A DNA stretch of 48,350 bases from a bacterium (GCA_017403285.1 JAFQOI010000131.1:1-48350), one strand, 5' to 3'; counted from the first letter of the stretch, positions 10,034 through 35,142 are shown. Notes: generated by a model from the sequence alone, not told the origin. Numbers and translations are program-made.

Positions 10034-11611
10034 ATGGCAGATGATAACCAGAAAAACGTTTTTAAGAACGTATTAGCAAATTTAATTAGGAAGAAAAATC
10101 CTGATGAATTTTTGGAACAATCAAAAGAAAGCAAATTGAAAAAAACACTTGGTGCGTTTGATTTGCTCATACTTGGGATTAGTGCAATTATTGGTGCTGG
10201 TATATTTGTTATGATTGGTTCTGCTGTTGTTGGTACTAATGAGCACGTTGGCGCGGGACCTGCACTTGTTATTTCAATTGCCCTTGTTGGTATTGCATGT
10301 ATTTTTCCTGCTTTGTGTTATGCAGAATTTGCTTCTATGATACCAGTTTCTGGTAGTGCATATATTTATACTTTTGCGACAATGGGAGAGTTGCCTGCTT
10401 GGATGATGGGCTGGATTTTAATGCTTGAGTACGCAATTGGTACAATTGCTGTTGCTGCAAGTTGGACAGGATATTTAGTGCAGTTTTTAAAAGGATTTTC
10501 GTTTCTTCCAGATTGTGTTAAAAATCCACCTGCTTGGTTAATTATGGATTATAGTTCTGCAGTTAATGCTGGTGCTAATGTTCCTCACGTTTTAGGTATT
10601 CCTATTAGTATGAACCTTCCTGCAATGTTCATAATAACTGTTATTGCAATTGTTTTATTTAAGGGTATGCAAGAATCTGCCAACTTCGCAAAGTTAATGG
10701 TTTTTGTTAAATTACTCGTAATTGGGTTATTTATTGCTGTTGGTTTTTATCATATTGAACCATCTAATTGGCAACCATTTATTCCTTTTGGTGCAAAAGG
10801 TGTATTAATTGGTGCTTTTGTTATGTTCTATGCATATATTGGTTTTGATGCCATCTCAACTGCAGCAGAAGAAACAAAAAATCCGCAGAAGAATTTGCCA
10901 ATAGGTTTGATAGGCTCATTAATTGTATGTTCTATTTTCTATTGTTTAGTAACAATTGTTCTTACAGGTATGGTTCCAATGGATAAGATTGATCTACAAG
11001 CACCTATTGCACACGCTATGAGTTTTGCTGGTGTTGGTGGAAAAGGTCTTGATATTATACAAGGTATTATTTGTGTTGGTGCTTTGGCTGGTTTGACATC
11101 AGTTCTCATTGTTCTACAATATGGTACAACAAGAATTTTATATGCTATGGCTCGTGATGGATTTTTACCTCCTGTGTTGAAAAAAATTCATCCTAAATTT
11201 AATACACCTTGGGTTATTACAATATTGTCTACACTTTTAATTTTGATTGGTTCTTTATTTATGAATAAAGATGTTGCCGCTGAACTTGCAATATTTGGTA
11301 CTTTTGCATCATTTATTATTGTATGTATTGGTATTTTAATTTTAAGAAAAACAGAACCTGATAGACCAAGACCTTTCAAGGTTCCTTGTTGTCCTTGGTT
11401 CCCAATTTTGGGTATATTGTTCTGTTCAATATTTATGTTGTCAGCACTTACAGAAGTTAAAACATCTGCGGCACTTTTTCCTCTATGGATTGTAGTTGGT
11501 GTTGTAATATACTTCTTATATGGTTATAAGAGCAATAGAAGAGAAGTCGCTGCAAAATTAAAACTGATTGAAGAAGAACAACCTAAAAAGGTTCCAACAG
11601 AAAATGTTTAG
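10034..11611 (+). CDS. APC-family amino acid permease (cationic amino acid transporter type)
   Basis: 525 aa with about 12-13 hydrophobic segments from residue 37 on. The first membrane helix holds the APC substrate-site motif IGAGIFVMIG. The loop AEFASMIPVSGSAYIYTFA and the later YIGFDAISTAAEETKNPQKNLP are hallmark CAT/YfnA-type sequences. It probably imports amino acids at the inner membrane using an ion gradient. The N-terminal 35 residues are charged and cytoplasmic. An AGGAAAA site precedes the start. Its last 8 nt overlap the next gene. The exact amino acid cannot be read from the sequence. Confidence 0.93.
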   Translation: MADDNQKNVFKNVLANLIRKKNPDEFLEQSKESKLKKTLGAFDLLILGISAIIGAGIFVMIGSAVVGTNEHVGAGPALVISIALVGIACIFPALCYAEFASMIPVSGSAYIYTFATMGELPAWMMGWILMLEYAIGTIAVAASWTGYLVQFLKGFSFLPDCVKNPPAWLIMDYSSAVNAGANVPHVLGIPISMNLPAMFIITVIAIVLFKGMQESANFAKLMVFVKLLVIGLFIAVGFYHIEPSNWQPFIPFGAKGVLIGAFVMFYAYIGFDAISTAAEETKNPQKNLPIGLIGSLIVCSIFYCLVTIVLTGMVPMDKIDLQAPIAHAMSFAGVGGKGLDIIQGIICVGALAGLTSVLIVLQYGTTRILYAMARDGFLPPVLKKIHPKFNTPWVITILSTLLILIGSLFMNKDVAAELAIFGTFASFIIVCIGILILRKTEPDRPRPFKVPCCPWFPILGILFCSIFMLSALTEVKTSAALFPLWIVVGVVIYFLYGYKSNRREVAAKLKLIEEEQPKKVPTENV

Positions 11612-12587
11612 ATTCTTCAATAAGAGTCTAAAATATTTGATTATTGGTGCGGGTTCTACAGGTGCTACATTTGCTTGCTTTCTTAAGGATGCTGGAAAGA
11701 ATGTTACACTGATTTCAAAATATGAAAGTGTTATTTCTATTGCAAGAAAAAATGGCGGTATAAAACTAAAATCAAATGTTAAAGGCGATAAGACATATAG
11801 GGTAAATATTAAAAAAGAAAATCAATATAAAGATAAAGCAGATGTTATTATTCTTTGTATAAGAACTCCTGATATGTTGTCGACGATTCCTTTTATTGAA
11901 AAAGTTTCACATAAAAATACTGTTGTTTTTTCTATTTCAAATGGTTTTGGAATAGGACATGCTTTAAAAAATAGATTTAAAAATTTAAATATTTTGGATG
12001 CTAATTTCGTTGGTAAATGCAGATGGTTTGATAGACAATCTGGTGAATATTTACAATTAAGAGAGTATTGTGAACTTAATTTTTCGCCTTTTGATGATTC
12101 TATTGATGCTAAGTTGTTAAACACTATAAAGGATGATTTTACTCAGGCTGAAATGAGAACAACATTAATGTCTAAGAAGATGTTTGATGAAATTTCTTTT
12201 GAACGTTTAATTACAAGGTCTGCATTTGAAGCAACTTGTATTTATTATGATATCAATGCTCATCAAATTGTTGATGAAAAAAGAGCGTTGTTTGAAAAAT
12301 TGTGTTCTGAATTACTTGTTTTAGCAAAAAAAATGAATATTAATGTTCGTGATGGTTTTCTTCAAGAGTATTATGATAATTTTGAATTATATAAAGAACG
12401 TGATGATGCAAATGTTTATTCTTCAATATTGAATGACTTCAAATTGAATCAAAAGTCAGAAATAGATTTTTTATTTTTTATAGTTATAGAACTTGCAAAA
12501 AAATATAATGTTGAACTTCCTAATTATTTTATGATTGCAGAGAAATTTAAAGAACATAATACTTTAAGCGCATATTTTAATTGCTAA
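11604..12587 (+). CDS. Divergent ketopantoate-reductase-like (ApbA/PanE fold) protein, copy A
   Basis: 327 aa from ATG 11604, which overlaps the permease stop by 8 nt. The N-terminal Rossmann motif is YLIIGAGSTGATFACFLKDA, and the middle NGFG motif (SISNGFGIG) corresponds to the conserved Asn-Gly of PanE. The helical C-terminal half has the family layout. Where true ketopantoate reductases have K-x3-N-x3-N, this protein reads ERLITRSAFEAT, so the catalytic Lys is Arg and the second Asn is Glu. It has a paralogue at 33523-34515 sharing the SF-x8-FExT block. It is probably an NAD(P)-dependent dehydrogenase for another 2-oxo or related substrate; pantothenate synthesis is unlikely. A radical SAM gene follows nearby, as in the second locus. 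Confidence 0.75.
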   Translation: MFRFFNKSLKYLIIGAGSTGATFACFLKDAGKNVTLISKYESVISIARKNGGIKLKSNVKGDKTYRVNIKKENQYKDKADVIILCIRTPDMLSTIPFIEKVSHKNTVVFSISNGFGIGHALKNRFKNLNILDANFVGKCRWFDRQSGEYLQLREYCELNFSPFDDSIDAKLLNTIKDDFTQAEMRTTLMSKKMFDEISFERLITRSAFEATCIYYDINAHQIVDEKRALFEKLCSELLVLAKKMNINVRDGFLQEYYDNFELYKERDDANVYSSILNDFKLNQKSEIDFLFFIVIELAKKYNVELPNYFMIAEKFKEHNTLSAYFNC

Positions 12588-12900
12588 GTTTTTCTTTTAT
12601 TTGTGTTTGAAGTTCTTTGTACCTTTCAACTTTATTGTTGATTTTAATTGCTTTGTTTATTTCCTTTAATGATTCATCAAATTTATTCGTGTCGTAAAAA
12701 ATAAGACTTTTGGTAACATAATACATATCGTTATTAGATTCTATTTCAATGGCTTTGTTTATAAGACTAAGTGCTTCATCAAAACATTTTAATCTTCTTT
12801 TTGTTTCTGCTTCAAGTGCAATAATAACTGCGTTATTGTTGATAACGAAATTATTATATTTAAAGTTTTTATTGAATATTTTTTGTATAAATTTAAGCAT
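12577..12900 (-). CDS. Small TPR-repeat protein
   Basis: 107 aa. Two tetratricopeptide-type repeats cover about residues 28-95: AETKRRLKCFDEALSLINKA followed by IE, then KSLIFYDTNKFDESLKEINK followed by AIKIN, with the usual A/Y/F/A spacing. There is no signal peptide. TPRs are protein-binding scaffolds. The gene is convergent with the reductase-like gene and shares 11 nt with it. It starts 80 nt from the divergent radical SAM gene. No SD sequence is evident. Partner and role are unknown. Confidence 0.7.
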   Translation of the reverse strand: MLKFIQKIFNKNFKYNNFVINNNAVIIALEAETKRRLKCFDEALSLINKAIEIESNNDMYYVTKSLIFYDTNKFDESLKEINKAIKINNKVERYKELQTQIKEKLSN

Positions 12901-12980
12901 ACGTGTATTTTATCACATATTTGAAAGTTGAAACAATGAATGATTTTATATTATAATTCGGTAGAAAAGGTTGAAATACT

Positions 12981-13964
12981 GTGAAATTTAAATGTTGTGA
13001 ATCTTTACTTCATAATTTAGTTATAAATCCAAAGGATATATATTTCTGTTGTTCTACATTTGATAAGAGATTGGAATATATTCCAGAATATCATGGTGGA
13101 CTTTTAGACTTAGAATATTATAAAAAAATAAGAGCAAAATATATAAAAGATTGCAAAAATGGAAAGTATCCTGAACCTTGCAGTCAGTGTCCTTTTTTTG
13201 TGGAACAAGAATGGGACGAAACGCTTGGCTTTACTACAATTTCTGTTTCAAATAGAACAAAGTGTAGTTGTAATTGTATTTATTGTATTATTTCTGGCGG
13301 TGGAGATATTGAAGCTAAGAGAAGATTAAATACACAAGAAACTTATGATGTTAAACCAGTGCTTGAACAATTAAGAAGAAGTAATATGGTTATGGATAAT
13401 TGCCAGTTTGTTATTGGTGGTGGAGAATGTAGTGAGTATCCTGAAGGTGAACTTGAATATCTTGTCTATTTTTCAATGATGACAAATGCTTATATTATTC
13501 TTTTAAGTTCAGGGTTCTTTTATTCTAAAGCGATAGAAAATGCACTTGCTTCATCTAAAGCACAATTAAAAATATCAGTTGATGCTGGCTCACGTGAGGT
13601 CTATAAGCAAGTTAAACAAGCAGATATGTTTGATACGGTTTGGGATAATATTGAAAAGTATATTCATTCACAAAAAGATAATCCTGCTTCAGAAGTGATT
13701 TTGAAATATGTCATAATCCCTGAAGTTAATGATAGTGTTGAAGAAGCAAAATTATTTGTTGAACGTTGTTTGAGTGTTGGCTGTGAAAAAATAGAAATTG
13801 CATTGGAATTTTTTTGGCTTGAAAAAAATCATATGAAAGAAGAAATTCCTCAATCTCTTGTTGATACGATTAGATATTTTGAATCACAAAAAGAAAATAA
13901 TGTCTTTTTTGCAAATAATATTTCTTCTCATATTACCAAGTGGTTAAAGGAAAATTTTGTTTAA
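12981..13964 (+). CDS. Radical SAM protein with N-terminal Cys motifs, copy A
   Basis: 327 aa from GTG 12981 (AAAAGG 10 nt upstream). The radical SAM cluster motif is C95-x3-C99-x2-C102, and the SAM-binding GGE-type strand is FVIGGGEC. Further cysteines precede it: C5/C6, C23-C24, C58 and C67-x2-C70, a pattern that could ligate an auxiliary Fe-S cluster at the N-terminus. The C-terminal half (SSGFFYSKAIE, ISVDAGSREVYKQVK, KYVIIPEVNDSVEEA) is the rest of the barrel. It uses reduced 4Fe-4S and SAM to make a 5'-deoxyadenosyl radical; the substrate is unknown. A paralogue at 31601-32551 shares all of these motifs. MoaA/PqqE-like chemistry on a peptide or sugar precursor is possible, but unproven. 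Confidence 0.82.
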   Translation: MKFKCCESLLHNLVINPKDIYFCCSTFDKRLEYIPEYHGGLLDLEYYKKIRAKYIKDCKNGKYPEPCSQCPFFVEQEWDETLGFTTISVSNRTKCSCNCIYCIISGGGDIEAKRRLNTQETYDVKPVLEQLRRSNMVMDNCQFVIGGGECSEYPEGELEYLVYFSMMTNAYIILLSSGFFYSKAIENALASSKAQLKISVDAGSREVYKQVKQADMFDTVWDNIEKYIHSQKDNPASEVILKYVIIPEVNDSVEEAKLFVERCLSVGCEKIEIALEFFWLEKNHMKEEIPQSLVDTIRYFESQKENNVFFANNISSHITKWLKENFV

Positions 13965-31600: not shown

Positions 31601-32551
31601 TTAATTTTTATAGAACCAGTCTTTTAGTGATTCGTAATAATCGAGTTTAATATCATCTTCTTTGCATTTATTTTGTATTGTCTTTATCATTTCTTTCATA
31701 TTATCTGTAATAGTATGATTGTTGTTTTTGTACCAATTCATTTCTACATCTAAAATTATTGATTTTATTCCAAGTGATAACGATATATTGTACCATTTTA
31801 AAATTTCTTCAACAGAGTCATTATATTCTGGAATAATAATATATTTGGAAATCACAGAACTTTTCGGATTTTTACTTGTCGCTTTTACGTATTTTTTCAT
31901 ATTTTCAAGGACTTTTTTAAAACAATGTACGTTCTTAACTTTTCTGTAGACCTCATCGCTTCCAGCATCTGGAGAAATTACAAGTCTAGTCGATTTCTCT
32001 TTTAAAACTTTTTCGATGGCTTTTGAATATTTAATTCCACTTGAGTGAATTAGGTAATTATCTATATTGTTTTTTACGAAAAGACTTATTATTTTTTCAA
32101 AATCTTTCATTAAAACCGGTTCCCCTCCAGCAAATTGCATATAGCCTTCTGGGATATTTTTTATCATTTTTTTATCGCATAGTTGTTTTAATATGCTATA
32201 AATTGATTTTTCTTTAAAATTTTCAATATTTTTGCAATCACAATATACGCATTGGCTATTACAGTTTATAAATGTATTTATGTCTATATATCCAAAAGCC
32301 AAGTCATCATTTTCTGTTTCTGTTTTTGTTATAAACAGGCACCCCTCACATTCTTGTGGGATATCTCCATTCCAAAAACGTTCTTTATACTCTTTTTTCT
32401 TTTGAATAACATTGTCGATGCTAAAATTATCATATGTTATCAATATGGGCATACCTACAGTCTTATGCGCAGATTTACAACAAACTCTAATTTCGTTATA
32501 AAAAAAATTAATTCCACTATCAATATAAGGGCATTTGTATCGTTGAGGCAT
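31601..32551 (-). CDS. Radical SAM protein with N-terminal Cys motifs, copy B
   Basis: 316 aa. The radical SAM motif is C97-x3-C101-x2-C104 and the GGE strand is QFAGGEPV. Preceding cysteines C7, C24-C25 and C68-x2-C71 repeat the spacing seen in the paralogue at 12981-13964 (C5, C23-C24, C67-x2-C70). Shared C-terminal blocks include SSG-x-x-YSKAIE, DAGS-x-EVY and IIPE-x-NDSVEE. The extra cysteines probably hold an auxiliary cluster. It is the third gene of a minus-strand set: reductase-like, SGNH hydrolase, radical SAM. Substrate unknown; the context suggests modification of a surface or secreted molecule (inference). Confidence 0.82.
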   Translation of the reverse strand: MPQRYKCPYIDSGINFFYNEIRVCCKSAHKTVGMPILITYDNFSIDNVIQKKKEYKERFWNGDIPQECEGCLFITKTETENDDLAFGYIDINTFINCNSQCVYCDCKNIENFKEKSIYSILKQLCDKKMIKNIPEGYMQFAGGEPVLMKDFEKIISLFVKNNIDNYLIHSSGIKYSKAIEKVLKEKSTRLVISPDAGSDEVYRKVKNVHCFKKVLENMKKYVKATSKNPKSSVISKYIIIPEYNDSVEEILKWYNISLSLGIKSIILDVEMNWYKNNNHTITDNMKEMIKTIQNKCKEDDIKLDYYESLKDWFYKN

Positions 32552-32611: not shown

Positions 32612-33508
32612 CTATAACTTCAGTCTTCTTATAATTGTAGGCATTAATCTATCCCAAGCGGCTTCTGATGGGTGGAGTTCATCTTGTGCGATGTATTTAT
32701 CTTCGTTCAGAAAATCATATTTTGCTGTATCAAAGTTGATTACGATAATTCCTTCATCTTCCAATTCCGTCCATCTGTCTGTGTGGAAGTTTGCAACCCC
32801 CATTCTTTCTGATGTAACGCTAGTATTATATACGATAGTTACGAATTTACAGTTTGGATTTTTCTTTTTTAGTTCCTTTTGGCTTTCTAAAATATGCATT
32901 TTAAGAAAATCAAATTTTTCATCATCACTTTTTAGTGTGTAGAAAAAGTCGTTTGACCTTCTTGCAATAGTTGTTGTTTTAAAATAATCCAGTGGGACAA
33001 CGGAAAAATTATTTTCAATTAATGTATTGTTCTTTTTTATATATCTTAAATATTTGTATTGTGCGTATTTGTCAAAGTAGTTTAAATATAAACGTCTTAA
33101 ATGATCTGTTATGAATATATATATAACGTATTCTGCATTTTCTACCTCGTTATTAAATTCATCAAAGTTCTTTATTTTATACAGAACATGTTGTATTCCA
33201 TGTGCAGGATATGCAAGATTTAGCGTTTTTCTTCCAGTCATAGTCTGAATTTTATCTGGTAGCGTTTGCCCGTCTTTTAAATCAACTCCAAAACCGAACG
33301 AACAACCCATTATAATAACTGATTTTTTTGTTTCGTCAATTTCTCCGAACAATACCCCTCTTTTTCCAAATGTATCTTTTGGATTTACTGGAAAAACTTG
33401 ATATCTATCTGAAGCAGTTAAACACCAGTCAGCAACAATAAATGTTATTATTGCACAAAAAGAAATGACTATACTCTTTATAAATACCTGTTTTTTATTC
33501 GTTTTCAT
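32612..33508 (-). CDS. SGNH-hydrolase-like protein with N-terminal membrane anchor
   Basis: 298 aa from ATG 33508 (CAGGAAA 7 nt upstream), preferred over an in-frame TTG 21 nt earlier. One membrane segment lies near residues 9-29. Block I of SGNH hydrolases is visible as IIMGCSFGFGVD, supplying the nucleophile Ser. Block V is DELHPSEAAWDRL, with the Asp-x-x-His pair. These enzymes are esterases, often acting on acylated polysaccharides or lipids outside the membrane. It lies 14 nt after the reductase-like gene and 60 nt before the radical SAM gene, so one transcript is likely. The topology suggests a periplasmic or cell-surface domain. Confidence 0.78.
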   Translation of the reverse strand: MKTNKKQVFIKSIVISFCAIITFIVADWCLTASDRYQVFPVNPKDTFGKRGVLFGEIDETKKSVIIMGCSFGFGVDLKDGQTLPDKIQTMTGRKTLNLAYPAHGIQHVLYKIKNFDEFNNEVENAEYVIYIFITDHLRRLYLNYFDKYAQYKYLRYIKKNNTLIENNFSVVPLDYFKTTTIARRSNDFFYTLKSDDEKFDFLKMHILESQKELKKKNPNCKFVTIVYNTSVTSERMGVANFHTDRWTELEDEGIIVINFDTAKYDFLNEDKYIAQDELHPSEAAWDRLMPTIIRRLKL

Positions 33509-33522
33509 TGTTTTTTCCTGTT

Positions 33523-34515
33523 TTAGCAATCACAAAGTTCTTTTAAGTGTTCAAGTTTTGGGGCTATTTTTTCAAAAGATGGTAAATTGATGTTTAGTTC
33601 TTTTGCTTTTTTTAAAGTATCAAAGAATTGGAAATAAAATTCAGGTATTGAATGAGAGTTTATATCATTTTCTGCTCTTGAACGCATATCTGGAGCAGCA
33701 AATGCATAATCTTTTGAAACTTGTTCATAAAAGTCATTGTTGTTTATAACGCCTATTCTTTCACCAAATGTAACTAAATCTTGTAATAATGAATACATTG
33801 TTTCAGAGGCTTCTTTGTTTTCTAAAATTTCCCCCATGTTTTTTTTGTACAAAAGTCCAGTTATTTCAAAAGGTGCAATTAAACAATGCTTTTTAAATGA
33901 TTCATTTAATATTTTGTTTTGTTCATAAACTTTTATAGGAAGTGGAACATTTTTAACAATGTTTTCAAGTTTTTTGTACATTTTCTCTTGTTTTTTGTAA
34001 TCTTCTTTTGTGCTTGCGCCCAAGTAAATCCCACTAAATGTTCCAATTTGTTTTATTCCTAAAATTCCATCTTTTTCATTTCTGAAAAATGGACCATAGG
34101 CATATCCTGTTGTTATGTTATGGTTTGGTAATTGGGTTTTTAAAAATTCTGTTACCCCAAAGCCATTGCAAACAGGGATTATTAATGTGTCTTTTTTTGC
34201 ACATTTTTCTATTATAGGAATTATTGATTTTAAGTCTGGTGTTCTTGTGCAAATAAAAATATAATCAACTTTTTTTGTATAATTTGTTCTTTTTAAATTT
34301 ATATTTGTAAAAACTTCTTTCTTTTTATTTAATAAATCTGAATAAAAGTTAATTCCCTTTTGGTTTGTTATCCTGTTATATTGATTATCCTTTGCTATTG
34401 TTACAACATTCTTTTTTGCAATTGTTAAAAAAGCAGCGAGTGCAAGCCCTAGTCCACCAGCGCCTATTATCATTATTTCTGAACTAAAAAAAATATTTTT
34501 AAATTTGCTAAACAT
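33523..34515 (-). CDS. Divergent ketopantoate-reductase-like (ApbA/PanE fold) protein, copy B
   Basis: 330 aa. The Rossmann motif is MIIGAGGLGLALAAFLTIAK and the middle Asn-Gly motif is VCNGFGV. The region that holds K-x3-N-x3-N in true PanE reads ESFKKHCLIAPFEITG, so a Lys is kept but the Asn positions are Ile and Glu. It shares SF-x8-FExT, the N-terminal MFxxF and overall length with the protein at 11604-12587. It is an NAD(P)-dependent oxidoreductase by fold; substrate unknown. It heads the minus-strand set with the SGNH and radical SAM genes. The only nearby purine-rich tract is GGGG; no good SD sequence is seen. Confidence 0.75.
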   Translation of the reverse strand: MFSKFKNIFFSSEIMIIGAGGLGLALAAFLTIAKKNVVTIAKDNQYNRITNQKGINFYSDLLNKKKEVFTNINLKRTNYTKKVDYIFICTRTPDLKSIIPIIEKCAKKDTLIIPVCNGFGVTEFLKTQLPNHNITTGYAYGPFFRNEKDGILGIKQIGTFSGIYLGASTKEDYKKQEKMYKKLENIVKNVPLPIKVYEQNKILNESFKKHCLIAPFEITGLLYKKNMGEILENKEASETMYSLLQDLVTFGERIGVINNNDFYEQVSKDYAFAAPDMRSRAENDINSHSIPEFYFQFFDTLKKAKELNINLPSFEKIAPKLEHLKELCDC

Positions 34516-34577: not shown

Positions 34578-34993
34578 TTAATTTAGAACTAAAAATCCTA
34601 GATTTAAATAGGCAGCGAAACTAATCCAAAGTAAATAAGGTAATAGCAATAATGATGCAATTTTAGAGTGTCTAAAAAATGTTATTATTGTCAAAATTAA
34701 GAAAATATACATTAAAACAATAATAATATATCCAAATAAAATGTTTTTTAGTCCAAAAAAACAGGTGTCCATGCAAAATTTAATCCAAGTTGGATTAAAA
34801 AGAATATTAGAGGTATTTTTTTGCTCTCATTTTTTCTACTCTTTAAAAATAAAAATAATGAAAAAAACATCATTATGTATAAAACTATCCAAACCGGAGT
34901 AAAAATCCAATCGGGAGGATTTAAAAAAGGTTTATTTAAACTGTCGAACCAATCCATGTTTTCCATATATTTATGATGAATTATTTTTTTCAT
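34578..34993 (-). pseudogene. tspO: TspO/MBR-family membrane protein, split by a 1-nt frameshift
   Basis: Two adjacent frames together make one TspO. The first (34748-34993) gives WFDSLNKPFLNPPDWIFTP, then VWIVLYIMMF and LGLNFAWTPVF, and stops. The second (34578-34772) continues FFGLKNILFGY and ends with the family signature LLLPYLLWISFAAYLNLG. The join falls in a run of seven T (minus strand, near 34757-34763), where eight would keep PVFFG in frame. Intact TspO has five membrane helices and binds porphyrins or related ligands. It is either a real inactivation, a slippery or phase-variable tract, or an assembly error. No strong SD sequence is seen. Confidence 0.85.
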
Positions 34994-35035
34994 GAAAACA
35001 TTAGACAAAAGTATTGTTTTATTCTTTATAAAAAA

Positions 35036-35068: not shown

Positions 35069-35142
<74 letters not shown>

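Follow-up and report, generated by a model that had tools for sequence, protein, structure and literature searches.

We analyzed a bacterial DNA stretch of 48,350 nucleotides (GCA_017403285.1, JAFQOI010000131.1:1-48350; the whole stretch is called the window here) from a genome of 2.23 Mb in 162 contigs. The analysis concerns two loci at which genes for proteins with the fold of PanE, a ketopantoate reductase (KPR), lie near genes for radical S-adenosylmethionine (radical SAM, or rSAM) enzymes. The six genes that a first-pass annotation had placed at these loci were confirmed as open reading frames (ORFs), and at both loci the PanE-like and rSAM families occur inside 3 kb. The genes are as follows.

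11604-12587, plus strand: PanE-A (P0001), a KPR-fold NAD(P)H oxidoreductase whose active site has diverged (Pfam ApbA, 2e-19; ApbA_C, 2e-14)
12577-12900, minus strand: a small tetratricopeptide repeat (TPR) protein, convergent with PanE-A (TPR_2, 7.5e-7)
12981-13964, plus strand, GTG start: rSAM-A (Pfam Radical_SAM, 1.6e-8), with an N-terminal four-cysteine domain resembling SPASM/twitch auxiliary-cluster domains; a row in alignment A1
31601-32551, minus strand: rSAM-B, of the same family as rSAM-A (Radical_SAM, 9.7e-19)
32612-33508, minus strand: an SGNH-like protein (P0004) with an N-terminal transmembrane segment and GCS nucleophile, Asn, and D-x-x-H blocks (alignment A4)
33523-34515, minus strand: PanE-B (P0005), a second, distant KPR-fold oxidoreductase (ApbA, 1.8e-19; ApbA_C, 1.6e-7)

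The first three genes make up locus A, in which PanE-A starts within the 3' end of an amino-acid transporter gene and the run is broken up by the opposite-strand TPR gene; the last three make up locus B, a co-directional minus-strand run.

The two loci had been described as copies of one module in which a reductase and an rSAM enzyme were duplicated together. The partners are indeed paralogues across the loci: PanE-A and PanE-B share 26% identity over 308 aligned residues (E = 3e-21) and rSAM-A and rSAM-B share 33% over 243 (E = 2e-33), both far above chance, and the shared motifs quoted for both pairs are present. Joint duplication, however, was not borne out. A search of the window genome with PanE-B returned the two window PanE genes only, whereas rSAM-B gave 43 matches at E ≤ 0.001, among which rSAM-A ranked 32nd. 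The closest paralogue of rSAM-A is encoded at L040:14416-15378 (46% identity), and a quick tree of 45 family proteins, with long branches, groups these two with a support of 100. An approximately unbiased (AU) test rejected rSAM-A and rSAM-B as sisters (p-AU = 0.00025), and duplication of one module is ruled out by this test together with the paralogue ranking. Because the nearest paralogue of rSAM-A adjoins a TPR paralogue (L040:13978-14274), in the arrangement seen at locus A, the TPR and rSAM genes are better described as a copied pair, seen twice, than as an rSAM locus into which a TPR gene was inserted, as had been suggested. In the closest relative found (G014), locus A is intact, including the TPR gene (PanE, ~75% identity; rSAM, 86%); at its locus B, rSAM-B (78%) and the SGNH gene (56%) are kept and PanE is gone. 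PanE-B has only two close homologues (36%), in G018 and G024. Each is next to an unrelated Clp-ATPase-like gene, and one of them has a possible rSAM gene two genes off.

The rSAM family was counted at 43 type I members in the window genome, plus four type II members that carry a Pfam SPASM domain. The figure of 43 is a lower bound, as contigs end within rSAM clusters; one 3,087-base contig (C107) holds rSAM genes and nothing else. Among the relatives searched (E ≤ 1e-12), the family is confined to the genus and to G052, with single weak matches elsewhere; most other genera of the same family and order lack it. Of the 38 genus genomes counted, 34 have 13 to 43 copies, and G052 has 10. Four genomes of the genus (G008, G019, G033, and G039) have zero members; either these genomes lost the entire expansion or it divides the genus. 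The rSAM genes have a slightly lower G+C content than their neighbors (0.284 versus 0.310). A phage origin was rejected by sequence, as a comparison with 50,697 phage records gave a single weak match. A limited literature search found no description of this expansion and no text tying the lineage, or ketopantoate reductase, to a radical SAM expansion. The genes at L025:5991-8276 and L161:12750-15044 encode fusions of an rSAM of the family with a multi-pass membrane protein resembling MATE exporters (~760 amino acids), and at least one other species shares the arrangement (62%).

By motif, the family appears catalytically intact. All 39 type I proteins in alignment A1 match PF04055 (Radical_SAM) and carry CxxxCxxC. 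Seven cysteines are invariant in 39/39: C7, C24, C68, and C71, the predicted auxiliary site in rSAM-B, precede the SAM-cluster motif C97xxxC101xxC104, and K206, K236, and N244 are invariant as well, in proteins that share 25 to 37% identity. PF13186 (SPASM) was not among the families listed for these 39 members, and no Pfam or NCBIfam model specific to their N-terminal part was found. The type II proteins (alignment A2, four sequences) have SPASM at the N terminus in 4/4 cases, with E-values down to 1.6e-15. Since a profile comparison of the two types (249 columns, 97.9% probability) places the type I N-terminal cysteines in or near register with the SPASM cysteines of type II, the most fitting interpretation of the type I N terminus is a SPASM/twitch domain that has diverged and that probably holds one auxiliary cluster. 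In both types this domain lies N-terminal to the barrel, and not C-terminal to it as in the usual description of SPASM/twitch radical SAM enzymes. The structural model of rSAM-B (pLDDT, 94.5; pTM, 0.92) has SuiB, PFL-AE, SkfB, BlsE, and DesII among its closest solved folds (Z, 14 to 16), and BtrN and MoaA-like enzymes are also among the profile and fold neighbors. Because these neighbors act on peptides, proteins, nucleotides, or sugars, fold alone leaves the substrate undecided.

Orthologues of PanE-A were found in 19 other genomes of the genus (46 to 76% identity; 20 genomes with the window), with no close match outside the genus among the relatives searched. Scored on greedy ORF calls, with G027 scored by coordinates and several relatives being draft genomes, PanE-A directly abuts an rSAM-family gene in 17 of the 20 genomes (16/18 fetched loci plus G027) and lies within one gene of a family member in 19. 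In the window and G014 a single TPR gene separates the two, and the G021 orthologue (46% identity) has no neighboring rSAM. Frequent adjacency across relatives, which the first-pass annotation had proposed as a check, thus holds for the locus-A reductase, but the partner is not fixed: the neighbor belongs to at least four rSAM types (rSAM-A orthologues, type II, L026-like, and L041:3126-like), in varied orientation. Since type and orientation vary, the association of PanE-A with rSAM genes has outlived several rearrangements. Genomes with PanE-A have a median of 36.5 family members, compared to 19 in those without it (Mann-Whitney P = 3e-7, phylogeny ignored).

PanE-A and PanE-B both score above the Pfam gathering thresholds for ApbA and ApbA_C, but fall short of the 141.35-bit cutoff of TIGR00745 (114.2 and 104.7 bits, respectively). 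The PanE-A model (pLDDT, 90.7) has the KPR fold over its whole length (Z of ~30 to KPRs and D-mandelate dehydrogenases), and the NAD(P) motif is retained. It departs from these enzymes at the active site, where alignment to 2ew2 places Arg201 in the column of the catalytic lysine, in the W-x-K segment of the C-terminal domain, and Arg205 at the position of the active-site asparagine; the segment FERLITR is kept in nearly all PanE-A orthologues. PanE-B, unlike PanE-A, retains a lysine in the W-x-K segment. PanE-A differs from canonical ketopantoate reductases also in being restricted to the genus and extra to the canonical enzyme.

The surroundings of the family in relatives point to surface glycans. 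PanE-A in these genomes lies in or beside clusters of 20 to 30 rSAM genes (L104-L118, L153-L158), which are intermixed with genes for a family 2 glycosyltransferase (GT2), a DegT aminotransferase, a GDP-mannose 4,6-dehydratase, and an MBOAT acyltransferase. The same clusters hold a WbuC-like cupin, several SGNH proteins, and a protein that weakly matches a putative Leptospira glycosyltransferase family. Judged from predicted gene content, these clusters are probable surface-glycan loci. An earlier suggestion that the enzymes modify a small molecule or surface group fits in its second part, given the GT2, GDP-mannose dehydratase, DegT, MBOAT, and WbuC-like cupin genes near the rSAM genes of relatives. 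TPR homologues stood beside an rSAM gene in 9/9 cases and SGNH proteins in 11/11, but the fetched loci had been picked around rSAM or PanE genes, which biases both counts, and this adjacency is only suggestive. By profile, P0004 itself weakly matches SGNH esterases (best E = 0.0012), and it shows the Ser, Gly, Asn, and His blocks. With Pfam, P0004 gives no SGNH match and two relatives give a weak one, and two homologues are without the serine.

Our best reading, at a probability of roughly 40%, is that the two loci are scattered outposts, two of more than 40 copies, of a genus-specific rSAM expansion that tailors the sugars of surface glycans, and that some of the keto intermediates are substrates of a diverged NAD(P)H reductase. 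Substrate and reaction are proposed here by analogy. Most family members would take part in surface-glycan assembly. An rSAM enzyme would take hydrogen from a sugar carbon and, as in BtrN, pass the electron to the auxiliary cluster, which would give a keto sugar or a related product (or a dehydrated sugar). The DegT enzyme of the cluster might transaminate this intermediate, or PanE-A might reduce it again with NAD(P)H, leading to epimerized or deoxy/amino sugars, and acyl groups might be put on or taken off by the SGNH and MBOAT proteins. PanE-A would thus serve the products of several rSAM enzymes instead of a single set partner. The order proposed in the first-pass annotation, with redox finishing after the radical chemistry, is possible. 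The more specific idea that surface-glycan synthesis in the genus draws on a combinatorial set of 20 to 40 rSAM sugar tailors with N-terminal auxiliary domains, all sharing one KPR-fold reductase, we regard as rather doubtful.

Known systems offer partial parallels. BtrN is a twitch rSAM enzyme that oxidizes an aminocyclitol alcohol to a ketone (PMC9012708). It resembles the family in having one SAM cluster and one auxiliary cluster (predicted here), in appearing among the profile matches, and in a radical oxidation that precedes another redox or amino step (proposed here). It differs in that its auxiliary domain is C-terminal, the sequence match is limited to the rSAM core, and it is a single enzyme, compared to a family of ~40 members. 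In apramycin biosynthesis, the radical SAM diol dehydratase AprD4 acts on a sugar with an NADPH reductase partner, AprD3 (PMC5461906), a functional analogy for the pairing of rSAM and reductase. That partner is dedicated, whereas the pairing here is not one-to-one, and AprD4 does not appear in the NCBIfam matches listed for the window rSAMs. The NF033640 proteins, N-terminal twitch rSAMs of Vibrio phage KVP40 and uncultured phages, appear from alignment length to share the domain order. Phage rSAMs match nearly the whole rSAM-B model (KVP40 Q6WHP4, TM of 0.65), and 18 of the 39 type I members gave weak matches to NF033640 (best, 1.7e-13), but rSAM-B reaches only 20.7 bits against a 170-bit cutoff. 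To our knowledge, NF033640 has no established function.

Several observations weigh against the surface-glycan reading. Many family members in the window genome are isolated among housekeeping genes, away from any glycan gene, and the reading leaves these unexplained. SPASM domains are known chiefly from enzymes that modify peptides. The link between PanE-A and the number of rSAM genes is confounded by shared ancestry, and relatives have not retained PanE-B together with an rSAM gene.

The chief rival we consider unlikely: the rSAM enzymes may, like most SPASM enzymes, modify proteins or peptides, each with its own surface or secreted target, with the glycan genes merely co-located and PanE-A in an independent metabolic role. 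One enzyme per target would suit both the diversity of the family and its scattered singletons. The top fold matches include SuiB and SkfB, which, like the SPASM relatives anSME and PqqE, act on peptides. However, no short precursor gene was found beside the rSAM genes among ORFs of at least 80 amino acids (the search stopped at this length), no domain for leader-peptide binding (RRE/PqqD-like) was recognized, and the clusters are tightly packed with rSAM and glycan genes together.

We find it improbable that PanE-A and PanE-B are plain ketopantoate reductases of pantothenate synthesis whose closeness to rSAM genes is incidental. Their KPR domains and fold agree with such a role, and the window genome has panB without the more canonical KPR of several relatives. 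PanE-A, however, occurs alongside that canonical type in seven genomes, many panB-positive genomes of the genus have no PanE at all, the catalytic lysine is replaced by arginine in PanE-A and the locus-A orthologues, and adjacency to rSAM genes holds through rearrangement. As a candidate pantothenate gene, PanE is disfavored by the distribution of panB and the canonical KPR. Considering that panB was found in 37 of the 38 genomes searched, that the canonical KPR is co-present in seven, and that PanE-A is absent from about half of the genus genomes searched, PanE-A looks like an accessory reductase and is probably not a pantothenate enzyme. Least probable is the original model of each locus as a copy of one dedicated reductase-rSAM pathway pair: both families do lie close together as paralogous pairs, and the locus-A reductase usually adjoins a family member, but there are 43 rSAM genes to two PanE genes, the sister of rSAM-A is another rSAM paired with a TPR gene and not rSAM-B, G014 has rSAM-B and SGNH without PanE-B, and the neighbors of PanE-A differ between genomes.

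Other features were noted near locus B and in the lineage. Just upstream of PanE-B, at 34600-35010 on the minus strand, a broken frame resembles by eye a TspO/MBR-type membrane protein, and L156:12920-13309 of a relative appears by eye to be a similar, intact gene. A tRNA-Arg (tct) gene lies slightly upstream of locus B (35069-35142, minus strand). Similar N-terminal segments of the form MNIS...SFxG occur in otherwise different proteins of the lineage (L029:9580, L040:30 and 17570, and L160:5166), perhaps a lineage-specific N-terminal signal.

A single rSAM subfamily with 43 copies in a 2.23-Mb genome is an extreme lineage-specific expansion. Since related species differ in their gene sets at the same locus, the question of substrate is testable. 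If the enzymes modify proteins, they would form an unusually large peptide-tailoring set; if their substrates are sugars, the family would open up a large and so far untapped reservoir of radical glycan chemistry, and a combinatorial glycan system, if real, would be a radical counterpart to the usual short-chain dehydrogenase/reductase (SDR) and aminotransferase toolkit of sugar diversification.

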